IMG/VR virus record: IMGVR_UViG_3300042894_008609
Span: 1-44,308 of that record
DNA from: a virus
Length of the DNA stretch: 44,308 bases
Reading direction: 5' to 3' (one strand)
Of the stretch, positions 29,737 through 44,308 are shown in pieces. The notes beneath the pieces are model-generated. The model ran no database searches, was not told where the DNA came from, and was given only the letters and a program-made list of their open reading frames with translations. The translations under genes and the position numbers were made by a program. Every line of letters starts with the position of its first letter. Position 1 is the first letter of the stretch.

Positions 29737-30099
29737 ATGGCATCCACCACCACACCCGAGTACGACTTCGACAACTGGACCGAGGAAGACGAGGAGAAGG
29801 CGATCGCCGCTCTCGTCCCGAAGATCCAGCACATCATCGTCGAGAAGAACTTCATCGGCCGTTTCGAAGACGGCGCGATCGTGAAGCTCCCGCTGCACCT
29901 CAGCCTCGACGACATCGACACGCTCGCCGCAGCGACACCCGACCCGGTCGACCAGGTCAAGGCGCTGCTCGAGCGTATGGGTGGCAAGGAGTCGCTCGCC
30001 GACTTCACCCGTCACAACCTGACGGAGACGATCGCGATGGCGCAGAAGTTCTTCGACGTCTTCCAGCGCATCGCATCGGCCACACTCCCGGAATCCTGA
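29737..30099 (+). CDS. Tail assembly chaperone, short form
   Basis: A 120-aa acidic protein after the tube gene and before the tape measure, the usual place of the G-type chaperone. GAAGGAG precedes the ATG. A second frame, open across the stop, continues as the T-type part. Identification is from position and the overlapping frames. Confidence 0.75.
   Translation: MASTTTPEYDFDNWTEEDEEKAIAALVPKIQHIIVEKNFIGRFEDGAIVKLPLHLSLDDIDTLAAATPDPVDQVKALLERMGGKESLADFTRHNLTETIAMAQKFFDVFQRIASATLPES
30087..30093 (+). other. Candidate -1 frameshift site
   Basis: C CCG GAA, read in the frame of the short chaperone four codons before its stop, is the best X XXY YYZ-like heptamer I can find. Slippage of one base back would enter the downstream frame. 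The A-site match is imperfect, so the site is uncertain. Confidence 0.35.
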
Positions 30100-30440
30100 G
30101 CGTCGCCCAGTTCATCGGAGAGCACCGCGGATCCGTCGCACGCACTCTGCGTGAGACGTTCTCCGTGGGCCTCTCCGATCTGGGCGACGCTGTCACGTGG
30201 GGTGAGGTACGGATCCTCCTCCAGGAAGCCGCAGGAGACCCGTCAACAGCCTTAGGCGCCGAACTGGCGGGATGGTCCTACCCCGCCACCGTTCCGGCGC
30301 TCCTGACGCTCTCCGCACAGTTGGGGAAGCAGTCACGCGACGTCATGCCATGGGTGCTCGTGCTCCGCGGCGACCAAGCCACCCCCGAAGAGGTCGCAAC
30401 CGCGCTCGCGGAGATCGATTCGGGTCTCGTGTTCACCTGA
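30093..30440 (+). CDS. Tail assembly chaperone, frameshift extension
   Basis: This frame has no ATG, GTG or TTG start until GTG 30165, yet it encodes a sensible sequence before that (SVAQFIGEHRGSVARTLRETF), continuing to ALAEIDSGLVFT. It lies -1 relative to the short chaperone. Together they would give a G-T fusion of about 234 aa, as in lambda and many siphophages. A separate translation from 30165 is the alternative. Confidence 0.7.
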   Translation: MLSVAQFIGEHRGSVARTLRETFSVGLSDLGDAVTWGEVRILLQEAAGDPSTALGAELAGWSYPATVPALLTLSAQLGKQSRDVMPWVLVLRGDQATPEEVATALAEIDSGLVFT

Positions 30441-30456: not shown

Positions 30457-33333
30457 GTGTCCTCTCAGGTCGCCTCCGGGCACGTCGCGATCTTCCCGGT
30501 GATGACCGGGTTCAAGTCGAAGGTCACGAAGGACACGAAGGATGCCGGTGCGGCCGGTGCGAAGTCGTTCGAGGGGGGCTTCAAGGGTGTCGGCGCCCGC
30601 AGCGGCCGAGCGCTCGGCAAGGACCTGAAGTCCGCGCTGGATTCGTCCGCCGGAAACCTCGGTGCCGGCTCGATGAAGCGGCTCACGAGCGAGGTCGCGT
30701 CCGCGTCGTCAGCGCTCGCTCGCGTACGGCTGAAGCAGCAAGACGACGCTGGACGTGTCCGAGTCGCGGAGACGCGTCTAGCCGAGGCGGTCGCCAAGTC
30801 GGGCGCATCGTCGTCGCAGGCGGTGGCGGCCGAGGAGCGTCTCGCATCGGTGCGCCGCACGCACGCGACGACCACTGAAGCCGTCGCGGCGGCCACTACG
30901 CGGCTTAAGGCGGCTCAGGGCACTCTCGCGGCGGCGCAGAACGCTGGCACCGTGTCGACAACGCGTTTCTCGACAAGCCTTGCCAGCCTCGGGCGGACAG
31001 CTCAGAGCGGATTCCAGTCTGTCGTGAGCGCAGCGGGCAACGCCGCATCGGCTGTCGCGAATGCACTCGGGTCTGGCATCCGTAACGCCGCAACGGCCAC
31101 GGTGACCGCTGCCACGGGAGCGATTGCCATCGCGATCGCGTCCTCCATCGGTCCCGCGATCTCGCGAGTGGACACGCTCTCGAACTTCCCGCGGATGATG
31201 CAGAACCTCGGCTACTCGGCCGCTGATGCATCCACTCAGCTCTCGAGGATGTCGTCGAGCCTCATTGGACTGCCGACGTCGCTCGACGCGATGACCGGGA
31301 TGGTCACCAAACTGGCTCCTCTCACGGGTGGGCTCAGCGAGGCCACCGATCTGTCTCTCGCCCTCAACAACGCGCTTCTCGCAGGCGGGAAATCGACCGA
31401 GCTCCAGTCGAACGCTATGGAGCAGTACACGCAGATGCTGTCGAACGGCAAGGTCGACATGCAGGCGTGGAAGTCGATGGTCAACGCGATGCCCGGGCAG
31501 ATGAACCAGCTCGCGATCTCGCTCCTCGGCGCCGGGGCGAGCACCATGGACCTGTACAACGCGATGCAGGACGGGACCCTCTCGTTCTCGGACTTCAACC
31601 GTGCAGTCCTCGATCTGAACCGCACTGGCTTGCCGGGCTACGCGTCGTTCGCTGACCAGGCGAAGACCGCAACCGCTGGTATCGCAACCTCCGTCACCAA
31701 CCTGCGGACAGCGGTCACCCGCGGGCTCGCGAATCTCATCACCCCATTCGCCCCTCAGATCGTCGCGTTCTTCACAACGCTCGCAGGGCTGGTCGATCGG
31801 GTCACTGCGGTCCTCGTGCCCTTCGCTACCGCCGCAGCGAGCTCGCTAGACGGGCTTGCCTCCGGGATGAGCGGGATGGCCCCGCTGCTGGCGACCCTCG
31901 GGGCCGGATTCGCCGCGCTCGGCGCCGGCGGCCTGGCAGGCGTGCTCGCACGGATCCCTCTCCTGTCCGCAGCCATCCCCGGCCTCACCGGCGCGCTCGG
32001 GCTGCTGGGCGGCCCACTCGGCGTCGCGGCAGCCGCACTCGCAGGCTTCGCACTCTCCGGCGGGGACGTCTCAGGGCTGGTGTCCAGCATCACGGGCATC
32101 GTCGGCCAGGTGGTCGCGGCCCTCCCGGGCGTGATCAGTGCCGTCGCGACGGTCATCCCCGACATCGTGACGTCGATCCTGTCCCAGGTGCCGGCGCTGC
32201 TCGGCGCAGCTGTGCAGATCGTGAACAGCCTTGTCGCTGGGATCGTCACGGCGATCCCGTTGCTCGTCGACGGGGCGCTCGCGCTCATCACCGGTCTGGT
32301 GCAGGCCCTGATCACCAACCTGCCGATGATCATCGCCGGGGCGATCAAGCTCGTGATGGCGCTCATCCAAGGCATCATCACGGCGCTCCCGCTGCTGGTG
32401 ACCGCCGCGGTGCAGCTCGTGACTGGGCTGCTTACCGCGATCGTGAGTGCACTGCCCGTGATCATCGAGGGCGGCGTGCAGCTGCTCATGGCGGTCGTCA
32501 TGGGTATCGTGCAGGCACTCCCGATGCTGCTGCAGGCGGCGCTCGATCTCGTGATGGGGTTGCTGCAAGCGATCATCACCAACCTGCCGTTGATCATCGA
32601 CGCGGGTATCCAACTGCTGCTGTCCCTCGTGACCGGGTTGATTGGTGCGCTCCCGCAACTGATCACGGCAGCGATCGAGCTGGTCCTGCAGCTGCTGGCG
32701 GGGTTGCTGACGATGCTCCCGCAGCTGATCGAGGCGGGTATCACGCTCGTCGTCGCGCTGATCACGGGTCTCCTCAAGGCGATCCCGCAGATCATCGAGA
32801 TGCTCCCGCAGATCGTTGAGGCGATCTGGAACGGCCTCGCGAACGTCGACTGGCTCGGCCTGGGGGCGCAGATCATTCAGGGCATCATCGACGGATTCTT
32901 CTCGATGGTCGGCTCCGTCGGTGATGCGATCGGCTCCGTGCTCGGCGGCATCCTTGACTTCTTCCCGCACTCGCCGGCGAAGAAGGGACCGCTGGGTCCG
33001 TCCGGCTGGCGTCAGCTGCGCACGTCGGGTCTCGCGACGATGCACCAGTTCGCGGAGGGAGCGAAGGACGGCGCGCCGGCGTACGCGGACGCGCTGACCG
33101 CGGCTGCGGCGGCGGTCTCGTCGCGGGCGCAGGACGCTCTGGCCGTGGTGTCGACGCGGACGAGCGTGGACGCGACGTCGACGGCGGCGACCACTGCTGC
33201 CGCTCCGGCAGCGCCCGGGGTCGCCTTCTACGGCGACGTGCACACGCAGGACGTCGACGAGCTCGTCGATCGCATCGAGAAGAAGAAGCGTGCGGCGAAC
33301 TACGCGACCGGCGCGACTCGGAAGGTGGGGTGA
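30457..33333 (+). CDS. Tape measure protein
   Basis: The 958-aa ruler of the tail. AAGGGG ends 6 nt before GTG 30457; GTG 30451 abuts the site. The N-terminal 250 residues are charged coiled coil. Residues about 230-400 are the conserved tape-measure domain (PRMMQNLGYSAADASTQLSRM, MVNAMPGQMNQLAISLLG). A hydrophobic repeat region spans 573-792. The end has FPHSPAKKGPLGPSGWRQL. The length predicts a tail of roughly 140 nm if the usual 1.5 A per residue applies. Confidence 0.93.
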   Translation: MSSQVASGHVAIFPVMTGFKSKVTKDTKDAGAAGAKSFEGGFKGVGARSGRALGKDLKSALDSSAGNLGAGSMKRLTSEVASASSALARVRLKQQDDAGRVRVAETRLAEAVAKSGASSSQAVAAEERLASVRRTHATTTEAVAAATTRLKAAQGTLAAAQNAGTVSTTRFSTSLASLGRTAQSGFQSVVSAAGNAASAVANALGSGIRNAATATVTAATGAIAIAIASSIGPAISRVDTLSNFPRMMQNLGYSAADASTQLSRMSSSLIGLPTSLDAMTGMVTKLAPLTGGLSEATDLSLALNNALLAGGKSTELQSNAMEQYTQMLSNGKVDMQAWKSMVNAMPGQMNQLAISLLGAGASTMDLYNAMQDGTLSFSDFNRAVLDLNRTGLPGYASFADQAKTATAGIATSVTNLRTAVTRGLANLITPFAPQIVAFFTTLAGLVDRVTAVLVPFATAAASSLDGLASGMSGMAPLLATLGAGFAALGAGGLAGVLARIPLLSAAIPGLTGALGLLGGPLGVAAAALAGFALSGGDVSGLVSSITGIVGQVVAALPGVISAVATVIPDIVTSILSQVPALLGAAVQIVNSLVAGIVTAIPLLVDGALALITGLVQALITNLPMIIAGAIKLVMALIQGIITALPLLVTAAVQLVTGLLTAIVSALPVIIEGGVQLLMAVVMGIVQALPMLLQAALDLVMGLLQAIITNLPLIIDAGIQLLLSLVTGLIGALPQLITAAIELVLQLLAGLLTMLPQLIEAGITLVVALITGLLKAIPQIIEMLPQIVEAIWNGLANVDWLGLGAQIIQGIIDGFFSMVGSVGDAIGSVLGGILDFFPHSPAKKGPLGPSGWRQLRTSGLATMHQFAEGAKDGAPAYADALTAAAAAVSSRAQDALAVVSTRTSVDATSTAATTAAAPAAPGVAFYGDVHTQDVDELVDRIEKKKRAANYATGATRKVG
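32173..32832 (+). repeat. Ten 66-bp (22-residue) repeats in tape measure
   Basis: Ten consecutive 22-residue units match the pattern G-L/I-xx-A-L-P-x-L-I-xx-A-I-x-L-V-xx-L-L-x. Examples start GIVTAIPLLVDGALALI, GIITALPLLVTAAVQLV and GLIGALPQLITAAIELV. The spacing is exact at 66 bp with no gaps; the DNA is less conserved than the protein. Confidence 0.85.
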
Positions 33334-38335: not shown

Positions 38336-38856
38336 AGACCCTGTTCCGCGCCCTCGCTGGCGTCCTGATCGCTTTCGCAGCCGCCATGCTGATCGGCGCG
38401 CCCGCGTACGCCGCCGGGCCCGTCGTGGCGACGTCGGTGGCGTTTGCGTTCACCCTCGACCCGCTGACGGTCGTCCAGTTCGTGATCGCGTTCGTCCTGC
38501 CCGTCCTCGTCGGCCTCGTCACGACTCGCGTCACGTCCGGCGCGCGGAAGGCGTGGCTGCTCGCCGGTCTGACGCTCGTGAGTTCGGTGCTGTTCGAGCT
38601 CGCCCGCTCCCTGCAGGATGCCGGCACCTTCGACCTCGGCGTCGCGCTCGTCGCCGCACTGCCCGCATTCGTGGTGTCCGTCGCCGGCTACTACGGCCTG
38701 TGGAAGCCGACGGGCGTCGCGACCGCGGCGCAGAACGTCGGCACCATCCCCGTCGTGAACGCCGACGGCGCGACCGAGCGGATGACCCGCGCCGAGTACC
38801 GTCGCGCGATCGCCAGCGGAACGGCCGAGCAGAAGCCGGAGGAGGGGCGTGGCTGA
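38332..38856 (+). CDS. Holin-like protein
   Basis: A 174-aa protein. The first 28 residues read as a signal-like or first transmembrane segment ending APAYAA. Three more hydrophobic segments follow (about 45-66, 80-95 and 102-122), and the soluble tail is charged. AAGGAG lies 4 nt before the ATG. This is the best holin candidate, but membrane topology is predicted by eye. Confidence 0.65.
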   Translation: MKTLFRALAGVLIAFAAAMLIGAPAYAAGPVVATSVAFAFTLDPLTVVQFVIAFVLPVLVGLVTTRVTSGARKAWLLAGLTLVSSVLFELARSLQDAGTFDLGVALVAALPAFVVSVAGYYGLWKPTGVATAAQNVGTIPVVNADGATERMTRAEYRRAIASGTAEQKPEEGRG

Positions 38857-41056
38857 CCCGATCTACACCTCCGCCTCCCCGATCGCAGTCAACCCCGCCA
38901 ACGGAGAGCTGATCGGCGGGGCGACGTTCACGGTGCACGCGCCGGACGACACGTCCTTCTCGACCCCGCTCGCCGTCACCGACCCGAACACGGGCGTCGC
39001 GATCAACCCGCTCCGCTCCAACAGCAACGGCACCCTCCCGGCATTCAAGGTCGCCGGGGATCTCCCACGCGTGAAGCTGAAGTCCGGCGGGTTCGTCACC
39101 GAGCTCGTCTCCCTCGACGGGCTCGTCGCGGAGCAGATCACCAATGCGGGCCTGGACTCGGCGACGGTGTCCGCCGCGATCGCCGCCGCGGGTACCGCGA
39201 CGACGAAGGCCGGTGAGGCATCGACGTCGGCCGCTGCCGCTGCGGATGCGGCGACGCTCGCGACGCAGAAGGCTTCCGCCGTCGCCGAGGTCGTCGCGAC
39301 GAACGACGGCATCATGTCGAACGTTCTCGACACCCCGGGGACCGCGTTCGGAGGGAAGGTCGACCAGCGCATCGAGGATGGTGTCGCAGCCGTGGCCCCT
39401 TCGGTCTTGGCGGCCCAGCCCGCGATCGTCGCCGCTGCCGACGCTGCGGTAGTCGGTGCGATGGCGGGGCGCGATGTCGCCGCCGTGATGCCCGCCTCGG
39501 AAGAGACGGTGCTGTTCACCGTCGTCGACGAGAACGACCGCCGGTCCTGGTTGGAGTTCGGCCCCGATGGCGGTCCGACCGCCCACGCGGCGCAGAAGAT
39601 CACCGCCGCAGTGTCGGGTCCTGTCGGGGAGGCGGTGAGCACCACCCTCGGTCTGGTCTCTCAAAACCACGACATCACGGGCGTCGCCTTCGTGGTCGTC
39701 GACGAGAACGACCGCGTCACCGACCTTGAGGTCGGCACCGATGGGCACTTCACCCAGCGTGTGATCGATCTTCTGTCGGCACGACTGATCGTTCCCACGC
39801 CGGCTGATCCGATCCGTGCGGTACTCCCGAGCGCTCTGCGGCTGCTGCAGGGCCGCACGTACCGGCTGAACTACGCCGACATCATCGGCGCTCTCGCTGG
39901 CGACTACCGGCTGCGCATGACAGGACCGGCGAGCAACTCCGGGAACTTCGGCACGTACTGGCAGTACACGCCCACCGCGGCCGGCGCATGGAACCTGACG
40001 CTCACGGTCCTGGACCGTGCCGGCGCGACGGTCCTGACCGTCACGGTGCCGGTGACTGTGTACGCGCCGATCGCGTCCTCGCCGACGACACGTCTGCTGG
40101 CGATCGGCGATTCGATCACCCGACCCAACAAGTACAACTCGGTCGCCGCGGGCATGGTCGGTGCCGTCACGCGCGGCACCCGCACCTACGATGCCGGTGC
40201 GACGCGCGGTGAGGGTCGCGGTGGGTGGTCGCTGAACAACTACTTCACTTCGATCGGAAGCGCGGCCGCGGGTGACAGCCCGTTCCTGTTCCCGACGAGC
40301 GTGGCCGACGGGGCGAAGTTCTGGGGCAACACCGAGTTCTGGCGGAAGGTCGGCTACGTCTCGATGGCGTCGCTGCCGGCCAACGGTTACGACTTCGATG
40401 GGTTCCAGCGGATGGCGCGGGGGTGGACCGACTCTGGTCCGCTGCAGTTCGACGCGAACGGCTACCCCACGACGCCCGCAGAAGGTGACGTGGTGGTCGA
40501 TCCGACCAAGGCGGCCGGCAGCCAGTGGCTCCAGTACACCTCGGGATCGTGGGTGACGATCGCGACGCCGACGCTCGAGTTCTCGTTCTCGAAGTACATG
40601 CAGCGCTACGCTGCCGCCTTCGCGGACGGCGCACCGACGGCGATCAGTGTGATGCTCTCGACCAACGACTGGTTCGGCAGCCTCACGGATGCCGCCTGGG
40701 CCACGTGGGTGTCCCGGGTGCAGACGATGATCGCGTCGATTCGCGCGTGGAACGCGAACGTCCCGATCATCATCATCGCGGCACCGGTCGGCGGACCGGA
40801 TACGAACTGGGGTGGCGGGCAGACGGTCAACAAGGTCGACTTCGACGCGCGCATGCGTGACGTCGCAGCTCGGCAGATCGCCACGTTCGACACGTCCGCG
40901 ATGCGCACGAACAAGGTGCATTTCATCTCGTTCCTCGGATCGGTCGCGCCGGAGAACATGGCCGATCACGTCCACCCGAAAGACCCCGAGGGGCACGCAC
41001 AGTTCGCCCCGTGGCTGGCGGGCAAGCTCGCCCAGATCATCACCGAAGGAGCCTGA
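38849..41056 (+). CDS. Tail spike/fibre with SGNH esterase domain
   Basis: A 735-aa modular receptor-binding protein from GTG 38849 (GGAGG upstream). Residues 1-90 are the attachment domain, 100-155 an Ala-rich coil, then two copies of a VVDENDR-x-(S/T)-x-L-E-(F/V)-G motif near 222 and 282, an Ig-like region (about 335-415) and an SGNH hydrolase domain: Gly-Asp-Ser422 (AIGDSITRPN), Gly block GRGGWS, STND block near 605 and Asp706-x-x-His709. SGNH domains deacetylate surface polysaccharides or teichoic acids, which would remodel the host receptor. Confidence 0.85.
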   Translation: MADPIYTSASPIAVNPANGELIGGATFTVHAPDDTSFSTPLAVTDPNTGVAINPLRSNSNGTLPAFKVAGDLPRVKLKSGGFVTELVSLDGLVAEQITNAGLDSATVSAAIAAAGTATTKAGEASTSAAAAADAATLATQKASAVAEVVATNDGIMSNVLDTPGTAFGGKVDQRIEDGVAAVAPSVLAAQPAIVAAADAAVVGAMAGRDVAAVMPASEETVLFTVVDENDRRSWLEFGPDGGPTAHAAQKITAAVSGPVGEAVSTTLGLVSQNHDITGVAFVVVDENDRVTDLEVGTDGHFTQRVIDLLSARLIVPTPADPIRAVLPSALRLLQGRTYRLNYADIIGALAGDYRLRMTGPASNSGNFGTYWQYTPTAAGAWNLTLTVLDRAGATVLTVTVPVTVYAPIASSPTTRLLAIGDSITRPNKYNSVAAGMVGAVTRGTRTYDAGATRGEGRGGWSLNNYFTSIGSAAAGDSPFLFPTSVADGAKFWGNTEFWRKVGYVSMASLPANGYDFDGFQRMARGWTDSGPLQFDANGYPTTPAEGDVVVDPTKAAGSQWLQYTSGSWVTIATPTLEFSFSKYMQRYAAAFADGAPTAISVMLSTNDWFGSLTDAAWATWVSRVQTMIASIRAWNANVPIIIIAAPVGGPDTNWGGGQTVNKVDFDARMRDVAARQIATFDTSAMRTNKVHFISFLGSVAPENMADHVHPKDPEGHAQFAPWLAGKLAQIITEGA

Positions 41057-41058
41057 CC

Positions 41059-41931
41059 ATGGGCAAGAAGCTCATCATCCCCGGCATCACCATCGACCCG
41101 TCCGCGCCCGTGCTTCCCTCGATCGATCAGGCGATGCCCGCTGCTGGCACGCTCGTGTTCATCGAACCGGGCCATCCCTACAATCCCGCATCGGGCGTCG
41201 CGATCGGCTCGTACCTTCCGAACATCGCGATCAACCAGGCGCGCGCAGCGACCGGCATCGTCTCCACAGATGATGTCGCGTACAAGTCGCGGCTGATAGC
41301 GATGGGAGCCAACTCCGGCACGGTCGAGCGCTCCGCGAAGGGCGGCCTGCACCTCATCCCCGCAAAGACGAGCCCGGGCGGTCTCGCTCTGTCGTACTCG
41401 ACGAGCGACCGTCCGGCCGGAGAGGGGCTTCTCGCGACGTGGATCGACGGTCACAAAGCGGACTCGCTGTACGTCGCGTTCTGGGGGCGATGGACGCGCG
41501 CGCTCGGCGCACTGGTGGGTTCGGGGTACAGCCTGAGCGCGATGGGTGCGTCGAACTCGCTCGCCCAGTTCTTCGCCCGACAGGGCTCGACGGGAGAGCT
41601 GGCGTACCCGGTGGACTCGCGTCGCCTCGGAGTCATGGCCGAGAACGTCCAGAGCCCGACCCTCGCCCCGTTCTTCATCGACGCAGCGTTCGCGGCGCCG
41701 GCGGCGACGTCGATCCCCGCGACGTTCCGACCGTTCGCTCTGTCGCCGCACGCCAGCGACGCGAACAGCACGCCGGCGGCGGTCTTCTACGACTACATCG
41801 TGGAAGATCTGACGATCTCGGGACGCACCTACGCGCAGGCGCACGCGGCCTGGTTCGGGAAGTACACCCGCGAGGTGAAGACCGCCGGCGGCCGCTACTA
41901 CGGCGACACCACACCGACGACGCCCGCATGA
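41059..41931 (+). CDS. Minor tail/receptor-binding protein
   Basis: A 290-aa protein directly after the esterase gene (GAAGGAG upstream). The C-terminal 150 residues (ATWIDGHKADSLYVAFWGRWTRA, FYDYIVEDLTISGRTY) look like a beta-rich, trimeric head domain. No enzyme motif is seen. Probably part of the tail tip. Confidence 0.65.
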   Translation: MGKKLIIPGITIDPSAPVLPSIDQAMPAAGTLVFIEPGHPYNPASGVAIGSYLPNIAINQARAATGIVSTDDVAYKSRLIAMGANSGTVERSAKGGLHLIPAKTSPGGLALSYSTSDRPAGEGLLATWIDGHKADSLYVAFWGRWTRALGALVGSGYSLSAMGASNSLAQFFARQGSTGELAYPVDSRRLGVMAENVQSPTLAPFFIDAAFAAPAATSIPATFRPFALSPHASDANSTPAAVFYDYIVEDLTISGRTYAQAHAAWFGKYTREVKTAGGRYYGDTTPTTPA

Positions 41932-41944
41932 TGCGCGCATCGCC

Positions 41945-42784
41945 TCAGAGCTGATCGAGCCTCGACCAGAGCGGCTCGAGAACCCTCTCTTCGATGTCAT
42001 CCAGCGACTCGACGACATCGAAGAAGGTGTCTCGTTCTTCTCCGAAAGCTACTGCCACTCTCGCCATCAGGTGGAGCGTGCAGTTGTGCGCGGCGGGTCC
42101 GTCGACCAGTAGGTGGCGAAATGGTTCGATCGCGGCGGCCGGGAAGAGGGAGAACAGGTCTGTCCCCGGGGCGAGCAGCGGCCGTTGGCCCCGCAGATTG
42201 AGCGCCCTCCACAGGTCGTACAACTCGACCGTTGCGGTGCTGTGATTGATCACAGCCACCCCCATTCCACGCGCCACTGACACCGCCGGATGGCCAAGTC
42301 GATGTTTGTCGTATCGGGACCACCGCGCCACGAGCGCCAGCGGTGCATCGTGCGGATCAGTGACGAGATAGGGTTGGGCGGCATCGATGATCGCTCCGGC
42401 GTCGGGATCGATATCGCCGAGGGCGTGCTGCCTCAGTGCTTTCGTTTTGGGGGGACGGGGAAGGTAGCTCTCCTCCGTGACGGCAATTGGAAAGCTTCCA
42501 TGCCAGCGCTCGGGCGGAACTCCGCGGGCTTCGGCGAATAGAGCGACCGTGCGATCAAGCGCCTTCGCGAAGTTGCCCAGTGCATCGAACAGATCGAACT
42601 CGAACTCTGGATTGGGTGGCCTGACTTCGCTGATCGTCCAGCGGGATCGCGCGCCGAAAGCGCTAGGAATGAGTGAGGACTCGATGCCCAAGTCGGCATC
42701 CCAGGCATCCAGCTGCTCGCGTAGTAACGTGAGCTGTTTTCGAGCCCGTGCGACCAGAGCCCTTGCACGTTCCGATCGCCTCAT
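41945..42784 (-). CDS. DKHR-motif protein, unknown function
   Basis: A 279-aa leftward gene from ATG 42784. N-terminal Arg-rich helix, FDLFDALGNFAKALDRTVALF, then AIIDAAQPYLVTDPHDAPL with RWSRYDKHRLGHPAV, a signature I recall from helical bacterial proteins of unknown function sometimes linked to defence or HEPN-like folds. The stop lies 13 bp from the convergent tail gene with no terminator hairpin between. A TACCGT ends 6 nt before the ATG, so it may be leaderless. Composition looks less GC-rich than the phage genes. Likely a cargo gene. Confidence 0.7.
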   Translation of the reverse strand: MRRSERARALVARARKQLTLLREQLDAWDADLGIESSLIPSAFGARSRWTISEVRPPNPEFEFDLFDALGNFAKALDRTVALFAEARGVPPERWHGSFPIAVTEESYLPRPPKTKALRQHALGDIDPDAGAIIDAAQPYLVTDPHDAPLALVARWSRYDKHRLGHPAVSVARGMGVAVINHSTATVELYDLWRALNLRGQRPLLAPGTDLFSLFPAAAIEPFRHLLVDGPAAHNCTLHLMARVAVAFGEERDTFFDVVESLDDIEERVLEPLWSRLDQL

Positions 42785-42790
42785 GTTCAC

Positions 42791-42796
42791 ACGGTA
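42791..42796 (-). promoter_or_regulatory. Putative -10 of the DKHR gene
   Basis: Read leftward, TACCGT (within GGTACCGT) ends 6 nt before ATG 42784. The same GGTACCGT occurs upstream of the gene at 43571. No clear -35 is visible. Confidence 0.35.
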
Positions 42797-42810
42797 CCGG
42801 TCGACCAACC

Positions 42811-42846
42811 AGCCCCCCGGCTTCTCTTCGGAGAGGCCGGGGGCTT
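42811..42846 (+). terminator. Strong hairpin between divergent genes
   Basis: AGCCCCCCGGCTTCTC (42811-42826) and GAGAGGCCGGGGGCTT (42831-42846) pair around a TTCG loop with one bulge, followed by TTTCGTCTTT. Orientation favours stopping rightward transcription entering from the tail genes, antisense to the DKHR gene. Confidence 0.7.
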
Positions 42847-42889
42847 TCGTCTTTGCCGGAGCGCTCTGCTCGGCGATACGTTGATGACC

Positions 42890-43438
42890 ATGCCTGAAGG
42901 TCGACCAGCAATCCCCACAGCACTTCAACGCGAGCTGCTCGAAGAATCAGGTCATCGCTGCGCGATCCCCACCTGTCGGGTCCCGGGGCCGCTGCAGTTC
43001 GCGCACATCACCCCATGGTCGAAGGTGCAAGAGCACCGATTCGAGAACATGATCGTGCTGTGCAATAACGATCACTTCCGATTCGACAGTGGTCAGATCG
43101 CACACCAGTCGATGCGGGCGTACAAGACGAACCTCGCAGTCCTGAACGGCCGCTACTCAGATGTGGAGCGGCGATTGCTGGAGCATTTCACGGACGTCGG
43201 CCTGGACTCGTCGGTCGAGATCGACGAAGGCGAGTTCGTCACCCTGAGCCTCCGAAACCTGGTCCGTGATGGGCTCGTTGCTGCGGTTAGGCCGCCGCAA
43301 CCCGGAATAGTCGCGCGTCGACCGGACGGAACGATGAAGGCCCGCGGCGGGTGGGTGGTCTATACGCTCACGGCTCCGGGACGGGATTTCGTCACGCGGT
43401 GGATTGGTGCGGAGACTCTTCTGACGATCGAGCCCTGA
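42890..43438 (+). CDS. HNH endonuclease with winged-helix-like C-terminus
   Basis: A 182-aa protein. GHRCAIPTCR near residue 22, QFAHITPWSKV near 36 and FENMIVLCNNDHFRFD near 49 form an HNH zinc-nuclease site. The C-terminal 70 residues (SLRNLVRDGLVAAVRPP and GGWVVYTLTAPGRDFV) resemble a winged helix. ATG 42890 is preferred: GATACG at 42875 with TTTGCC 17 bp upstream would place transcription start there. In-frame TTG 42881 and ATG 42884 are alternatives. It is divergent from the DKHR gene. Stand-alone nucleases of this type occur as phage or defence genes. Confidence 0.78.
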   Translation: MPEGRPAIPTALQRELLEESGHRCAIPTCRVPGPLQFAHITPWSKVQEHRFENMIVLCNNDHFRFDSGQIAHQSMRAYKTNLAVLNGRYSDVERRLLEHFTDVGLDSSVEIDEGEFVTLSLRNLVRDGLVAAVRPPQPGIVARRPDGTMKARGGWVVYTLTAPGRDFVTRWIGAETLLTIEP

Positions 43439-43571
43439 TCAGCTCAGCCGCACGGTACAGCACTCCGGCGGCGGCGCTGGTGGGGAACTGCTCGTCGTAC
43501 GCGCGAGCCTCACGCTCGACGTCGACCGCGGCGGCCTCCCGGCCCGCGGCATACGCCTCAGCGATCGTCAT
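43392..43571 (-). CDS. 59-aa hypothetical protein
   Basis: A small helical, Ala/Glu-rich protein from ATG 43571 (GTG 43574 also in frame). Its end overlaps the convergent HNH gene by 47 nt. GGTACCGT lies 9 nt upstream, followed further up by tandem 20-bp repeats. The family is not recognised. Confidence 0.6.
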   Translation of the reverse strand: MTIAEAYAAGREAAAVDVEREARAYDEQFPTSAAAGVLYRAAELIRARSSEESPHQSTA

Positions 43572-43600
43572 CACATCTCAACGGTACCCAAACGGAACCA

Positions 43601-43669: not shown

Positions 43670-43942
43670 TCACTGCCGCACGCTGAGCAGTCGCCACCCG
43701 TCGGGCACTTTGGCTTCGAGCTGGGGCATGGTGTCGGCTTCGATCTCGCGGATGCCGTCGCGGCGCTCGAACGTCCCCGTCGCTTTCAACGCGGTCGACC
43801 CGGCCAGCATGGCGACGGGCGCTTTCGTGAGCTCCCACCCGGCGGGGATCTGCGCGGTGAGCTTCTCGTGGACGTCGGCGAGGGAGTCGCCTTCGACGTC
43901 GATGGTGCGGGTCTCCACGGGGCGGATGAGGCCAGTCAGCAT
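43670..43942 (-). CDS. Hypothetical protein with internal duplication
   Basis: A 90-aa protein. Two copies of an alpha-beta pattern ending P-x-G-W-x-L are seen: DSLADVHEKLTAQIPAGWEL and DTMPQLEAKVPDGWRLL. Actinophages commonly encode single-copy proteins with this PxGWxLL ending; the function is unknown. It lies 9 nt after the gene at 43952, in the same orientation. Confidence 0.65.
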   Translation of the reverse strand: MLTGLIRPVETRTIDVEGDSLADVHEKLTAQIPAGWELTKAPVAMLAGSTALKATGTFERRDGIREIEADTMPQLEAKVPDGWRLLSVRQ

Positions 43943-43951
43943 GAGCCCAGC

Positions 43952-44308
43952 CTACGGTCGCACCATCGGCGCACCGTGCGAGCCGGCGTCGCGTCGCGCA
44001 CGCCCGTCCCCGACCCAGTCGACAGCGCTGGGGATCTCGAGGAGCGCCTTGCAGAGCGTGCGGGTGTGGTCGTCGCCGTAGAAGCCGACCCACGATCCGG
44101 CGACGCGGGCGAGGATGTCGGTTCGGTCGCCGGCGACGCGGCGGAGCTCGTCGACGACGGCCGCGGTATCCGTGGCGTATCGGTGCCGGCCGCAGATTGC
44201 GGAGAGGCGCACGTCGAGGGCGGTGTCGGGGTCGAGACCGGAGCGGGACATGCGGGGAGCGTAGAGCGTGCTGCGGACATCAGCCGCCGCGGATGCCGGG
44301 TAGCTCAT
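43952..44308 (-). CDS. Hypothetical protein at window edge
   Basis: A 118-aa protein if it starts at the last base of the window (ATG 44306-44308), or 99 aa from ATG 44251, which begins MSRSGLDPDTALDV and may be the true start. The core (VVDELRRVAGDRTDILARVAG, SWVGFYGDDHTRTLCKALL) is helical and has the look of a small actinophage protein. Function unknown. Confidence 0.6.
   Translation of the reverse strand: MSYPASAAADVRSTLYAPRMSRSGLDPDTALDVRLSAICGRHRYATDTAAVVDELRRVAGDRTDILARVAGSWVGFYGDDHTRTLCKALLEIPSAVDWVGDGRARRDAGSHGAPMVRP

Follow-up and report, generated by a model that had tools for sequence, protein, structure and literature searches.

Two accessory genes, one of them a divergent member of a DKHR protein family, in a probable cargo slot of a Microbacterium prophage

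The right end of a temperate Microbacterium phage very probably contains a cargo slot holding two separate genes, one encoding a DKHR-family protein and the other an HNH nuclease. The DNA analyzed here, referred to as the window, covers an entire IMG/VR virus record (44,308 bases), which may itself be a fragment. It is a temperate Microbacterium phage or prophage, with an integrase at its left end and a tape-measure region showing 71% identity to Microbacterium phage Min1 across the matched parts. The combined explanation that we favor, in which two separately acquired genes occupy a cargo slot and the DKHR protein protects the lysogen, has roughly an even chance of being correct.

The tail operon ends at position 41931 and is followed by the DKHR gene on the minus strand, a hairpin, the HNH gene on the plus strand, and the leftward right-end genes. 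The last late gene (41011–41931, plus strand), which matched PHROG 18370 (5e-23) and the minor tail protein PHROG 36751 (8e-6), is convergent with the DKHR gene (41945–42784, minus strand; an open reading frame of 279 aa), with a gap of 13 bp between them. The HNH gene (42890–43438, plus strand; 182 aa) is overlapped at its 3' end by a small right-end ORF (43392–43574, minus strand; 60 aa), called as an ORF alone and without a family found in Pfam or PHROG. Two backbone genes on the minus strand follow (43670–43942 and 43952–44308). The first-pass annotation had placed two divergent genes of foreign character between the tail genes and the right end, and both were found there; the GC content of the two-gene region is 62.2% versus 66.6%, in the lowest 0.1% among windows of the same size. 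Among other features of this end, a tail fiber-like protein (38849–41056) resembles GDSL/SGNH hydrolases in its C-terminal stretch (PF13472, 1.8e-5, below the cut-off). Within the 3' coding part of the DKHR gene, positions 41977–42034 give an opposite-strand self-match and contain an imperfect palindrome at 41988–42024, with 17-nt arms (88%) and a 3-nt loop.

The gene at 43952–44308, used as the query for finding related prophages, has relatives in four of them (L260–L263; 68–91% protein identity). The right-end genes, including the shared gene at 43670–43942, show 83–91% DNA identity in L260, L261 and L263, and 76% in L262. In the slot beside them, L260 encodes a 742-aa acyltransferase (PF01757, 4e-28), L262 a 413-aa acyltransferase (2e-36) and L263 a GDSL hydrolase (PF13472, 5e-20), and nothing was recognized in L261; these names come from Pfam profiles, and a PDB sequence search with the relatives' slot cargo returned nothing. 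Because the four prophages fill the same place differently or leave it empty, it behaves as a variable cargo (moron) slot, in agreement with the earlier suggestion of cargo. The acyltransferases and the hydrolase in these sister slots point to surface modification rather than intracellular defense. Cargo of this sort hints at a lysogenic conversion acting on the cell surface, which is another form of anti-phage protection.

Hairpins of the type AGCCCCCGGC..GCCGGGGGCT occur in the slots of L262 and L263 as well, with 94% identity over 31 nt in L262, suggesting that the hairpin of the window probably belongs to the phage backbone; the likeness to L262 could also reflect convergence of common GC-rich actinobacterial terminators. 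Since the DKHR gene lies on the tail side of this backbone-like hairpin and the HNH gene on the other side, the two genes were probably acquired separately. We propose that the moron slot, flanked by the tail operon and the right-end genes, would be marked by a late-operon terminator hairpin, with one accessory gene on each side.

The hairpin itself (42814–42843) has 13 pairs, a TTCG loop and a T-rich tail (fold z = -2.8), and is the top terminator-like site in the window, where four such sites were found versus 1.0 expected. It is terminator-like on the plus strand alone. A strong hairpin had been said to isolate both genes from late transcription; being unidirectional and placed between divergent genes, it is expected to shield the HNH gene, whereas the DKHR gene would be crossed by late transcripts in antisense, the hairpin lying beyond that gene. 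A leaderless-type promoter had also been attributed to the DKHR gene. The candidate -10 element TACCGT (42791–42796, minus strand) does precede the ATG by 6 nt, a spacing found before approximately 0.1–0.4% of start-like triplets in the window, but the sequence pattern search found no -35 box upstream. Given that the DKHR gene opposes the late genes and has this leaderless-type pattern of its own, it is probably expressed in the lysogen.

The start of the DKHR gene is most likely the ATG at 42784, which is preferred because a longer TTG-started ORF crosses the hairpin and because the N-terminus of the family fits this position. As a lone query, the encoded protein (P0001) gave empty or meaningless results in Pfam, PHROGs, NCBIfam, PADLOC and PDB, and no relatives among phages, plasmids, virus contigs, genome contigs or close-relative scans. 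The entry point to its family came from scanning approximately 100 HNH-family loci for "DKHR", which yielded a single neighbor protein, P0006, in a Kiloniellaceae MAG (L084); P0006 aligns with P0001 at 22% identity (E 6e-5). The family was then rebuilt stepwise from P0006 through phages, plasmids, genomes and virus contigs, the samples being draws from the database, and has the consensus KLxRAxxH...GDxxHNLRSALDxL...FPI...QPY...LxNxDKHR. Against a leave-one-out family profile, P0001 scored 86 bits over residues 5–269 (E 2.6e-24 in the ORF set), compared with at most 5.8 bits for 500 shuffles of its sequence.

The DKHR motif noted at first pass is real, occupying residues 159–162 of P0001 and conserved in its family, and the FPI, QP(Y) and DKH(R) motifs are all present. 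The motif GD..HNLRxALD is not intact: it reads FDALGNFAKALD, with D, N and LD kept and G, H and R lost, so that GNFA stands at the HNLR position. As the family is defined by its profile, this loss marks P0001, on sequence grounds, as a divergent member rather than a protein outside the family. The lack of HNLR suggests that the window copy may be altered or inactive; the GD..HNLRxALD and DKH(R) motifs would together form the working site of DKHR proteins, the first of them being degraded here.

The predicted structure of P0001 (pLDDT 71.7, pTM 0.71) found no counterpart in a PDB fold search (best E 0.8). Among viral models it found one good counterpart, 275 residues long like gp32 of Gordonia phage Samba. 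We considered HEPN since many HEPN proteins carry RN..H motifs; the moderate-confidence model gave no PDB fold match below E 0.8, and DKHRLGH contains R-x2-H only, versus Rx4-6H.

Members of the DKHR family were found in 23 of 296 Actinomycetota genomes sampled and in 27 of 300 Microbacteriaceae, corresponding to approximately 8–9% of the sampled Actinomycetota genomes, and many of them have no visible phage context. The family was also present in two of 190 genomes from the class of Kiloniellaceae and in 20 virus contigs. A set of 29 family sequences had no credible match in Pfam, no Pfam, PHROG or PADLOC model for the family was found, and a literature search for the DKHR motif returned nothing relevant; NCBIfam was searched with P0001 and P0002 only, and a recent NCBIfam model of canonical members is possible. 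As far as these searches reach, the DKHR family is large and undescribed, and the word "undescribed" in the first-pass annotation was right for this protein family. Two DKHR-family ORFs adjoin each other within single actinobacterial genomes (L158 and L139/L140), as tandem or split copies.

In phages, the DKHR gene is usually solitary. Its annotated relatives are gp32 of Gordonia phages ZiggyZoo and Samba, a hypothetical protein whose gene, like that of the window, adjoins tail genes on the opposite strand. Unlike P0001, gp32 keeps a canonical NLR motif (QNLRSCLD), and its gene is preceded by gp33, whereas that of the window is preceded by the HNH gene. In ZiggyZoo (gp33, L108:5440–5931) and in L112, a 163-aa helical-looking protein with the motif RNHVEH (HEPN-like RN..xH) is encoded directly upstream of gp32 on the same strand; ZiggyZoo gp33 had no Pfam or PHROG match.

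The HNH gene starts at ATG 42890 (MPEGRPAIP), matching its relatives. Its reading as an HNH nuclease with a winged-helix-like end proved sound. The Pfam models HNH_2 (PF13391; 28.9 bits, 1.1e-6) and HNH (PF01844; 22.2 bits, 1.6e-4) both matched above their cut-offs, the family alignment shows the catalytic residues H39, N53 and H62 to be conserved, and the predicted structure (pLDDT 87.6) gave weak Foldseek matches to HNH domains in its first half and to HxlR/MarR-type regulators in its second half, which supports a winged-helix C-terminus. The four zinc cysteines of the two knuckles, which are not universal among HNH proteins, are incomplete, the second knuckle reading CNND (C61D) and leaving three cysteines. 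Asp likewise stands for a zinc cysteine in Microbacterium locus L007:8001–8516 (CAND), and most relatives have CxxC. Similarity to known systems was limited: the IscB equivalog, consulted for an RNA-guided IscB or Cas9 identity, scored 22 bits against a cut-off of 175, the PADLOC systems PDC-M68 and Septu PtuB gave partial HNH-domain matches only (the best, at 1.8e-5, spanned 60 residues of a model with 253 positions), and matches in PHROG were weak and to phage HNH families of general role. McrA-type HNH endonucleases (ScoMcrA, 5zmm; EcoKMcrA, 6ghc) share the HNH domain, with weak profile and fold matches. Unlike them, the window protein has no modified-base or phosphorothioate reader domain, and its HNH domain is N-terminal with the winged helix after it. 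Through its winged helix the nuclease would attach to DNA and position the HNH domain there, and it would work without the DKHR protein.

Relatives of the HNH protein are approximately 165–190 aa long, with the same domain order, and occur in many bacterial phyla and in phages. Rough gene calls also placed HNH-family genes antisense between tail genes, near a tape-measure-sized gene, in L089, L091, L097, L011 and L057; such sites in several actinobacterial phages and prophages resemble a preferred moron site. Because our neighborhood gene calls were home-made and err antisense in GC-rich DNA, we based our conclusions on profile matches and annotated records. A statistic counting genes antiparallel to both neighbors was dropped as evidence, since the gene caller yields spurious antisense ORFs in such DNA.

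One may ask whether the two genes are simply selfish or neutral, the HNH protein acting as a free-standing endonuclease of the homing type and the DKHR protein serving a non-protective phage function. HNH morons do recur among phage structural genes, encoded on the opposite strand with no DKHR gene (L003, L004 and L005), and the general-role phage families that the protein weakly matches agree with such a role. However, the HNH family is also common outside recognized virus contigs and spread over many phyla, and a winged helix would be unusual for homing enzymes. The frequency of DKHR genes in actinobacterial genomes, often without phage context, makes a purely phage function unlikely as well, and we consider this explanation unlikely overall.

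Across 72 DKHR loci, an IS1595-family transposase was next to the DKHR gene, or one gene away, in 10 and a serine recombinase was near it in seven, with no other recurrent partner. In at least seven elements, inverted repeats and an exact 8-bp target duplication enclose the transposase and the DKHR gene: L084 6328–9244 (the Kiloniellaceae MAG; AAAACTTT), L111 3359–5867 (AATATAAT), L149 7534–9498 (TAACGCAA), L151 6445–8481 (ACATCGGT), L159 3554–5836 (TAGACCGC), L162 5934–8859 (CCCGATGT) and L173 6269–9045 (CATTATTT). The weakest of these repeats match at 12/16 in the first 16 bases (L149) and at 14/20 (L084); in controls, 0 of 132 intervals combined an exact duplication with repeats matching at 14/16 or better. 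IS1595-family elements produce 8-bp duplications (PMC12561309). The duplications and inverted repeats around transposase plus DKHR gene indicate that the DKHR family is genuine transposon cargo. The DKHR protein would thus be a solitary accessory protein carried by phages, IS1595-family transposons and plasmids. On a Paenarthrobacter conjugative plasmid (L110:4136–5651), a DKHR gene lies approximately 85 bp downstream of a recombinase gene, possibly another mobile unit.

The two genes of the window had been put forward as a pair, with co-occurrence elsewhere as the check. Among approximately 72 DKHR and 104 HNH loci, the two families adjoin only in the window and in L084, which does not bear out a system. 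A single two-component defense system, in which the DKHR protein senses or blocks an invader and the HNH protein cuts DNA, gains some weight from L084: its IS1595 transposon carries members of these two families and no other passengers (transposase-HNH-DKHR, with its exact 8-bp duplication), and chance adjacency of both families is rare by rough estimate. Unlike the window, the L084 element has a transposase and inverted repeats, its HNH protein is approximately 33% identical to that of the window, and its HNH and DKHR genes are in tandem, whereas those of the window are divergent. In the window, moreover, a hairpin of the related phages' slot type separates the genes, and the remaining DKHR transposons have no HNH gene of this family. 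We therefore regard one obligate system as very unlikely; the rare adjacency fits accessory genes that share their types of vehicle and may occasionally cooperate.

That IS1595 transposases and serine recombinases are the only recurrent neighbors could also mean that the DKHR protein has an accessory part in DNA mobility, regulating a transposase or recombinase. This is highly improbable, as most loci, including 29 of 29 Microbacteriaceae loci examined, have no nearby IS1595 transposase, and the DKHR gene of the window lies approximately 40 kb from the integrase. Although family members ride IS1595 elements and L084 holds both genes, it is just as improbable that the window pair remains from an earlier IS1595 transposon whose transposase and ends have disappeared, and we rejected the pair as IS1595 cargo: no transposase, terminal inverted repeats or 8-bp duplication was found in the window around the pair or either gene, the backbone-like hairpin stands between the genes, and P0001 is distant from the transposon members. 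An 18-nt inverted pair (41948/43428) framing both genes was no better than local chance pairs and had no duplication.

We favor the reading of a cargo slot with two separate accessory genes, and the neighbors of other DKHR genes bear on what the DKHR protein might do. A PADLOC scan (E ≤ 1e-10) of 102 genes neighboring family members outside Microbacteriaceae matched PD-T7-1 (2e-171), PD-T7-5, MzaA, SspH, AbiTii, PDC-S32 and PDC-S58, as well as mad3, mad8, a nicking enzyme and a few generic models. In a control set of 102 genes drawn at random from these genomes, there were six matches, none better than 3e-22. At E ≤ 1e-20 the counts were roughly 8–12 versus 2, where two models may match one protein and some models are generic, and this modest excess of known defense genes near DKHR relatives is suggestive only. 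In one genome (G055), a PD-T7-1 gene (31025–32368) lies approximately 0.7 kb from a DKHR match (29884–30363); work that selected functionally for anti-phage systems names PD-T7-1 (PMC9519451).

Prophage-expressed defense genes are established in actinophages, including Gordonia phages (PMC6426606). By genome context, the window resembles CarolAnn genes 43/44 and Sbash genes 30/31, which temperate actinophages likewise carry as accessory genes away from the structural operon, the Sbash genes having their own lysogenic promoter (PMC6426606). That cargo sits beside the repressor, whereas the slot of the window is beside the tail genes. The DKHR protein may be an intracellular anti-phage or exclusion factor, and lysogen protection is tentatively its likeliest function, at somewhat less than an even chance. 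Broader still, and in our view doubtful, is the possibility that DKHR proteins are widespread stand-alone effectors against phages or mobile elements, forming protective cargo of temperate phages, IS1595 transposons and plasmids, with the HNH-winged-helix nuclease as an occasional partner.

The object described here is prophage cargo, which is of a known kind, and its DKHR gene opens a large family with no Pfam, PHROGs or PADLOC model as searched. If the DKHR family does protect its hosts, a function would become assignable to many "hypothetical proteins". The slot, with its differing cargo in sister prophages, is a place to seek further lysogen-protection genes of Microbacterium phages.
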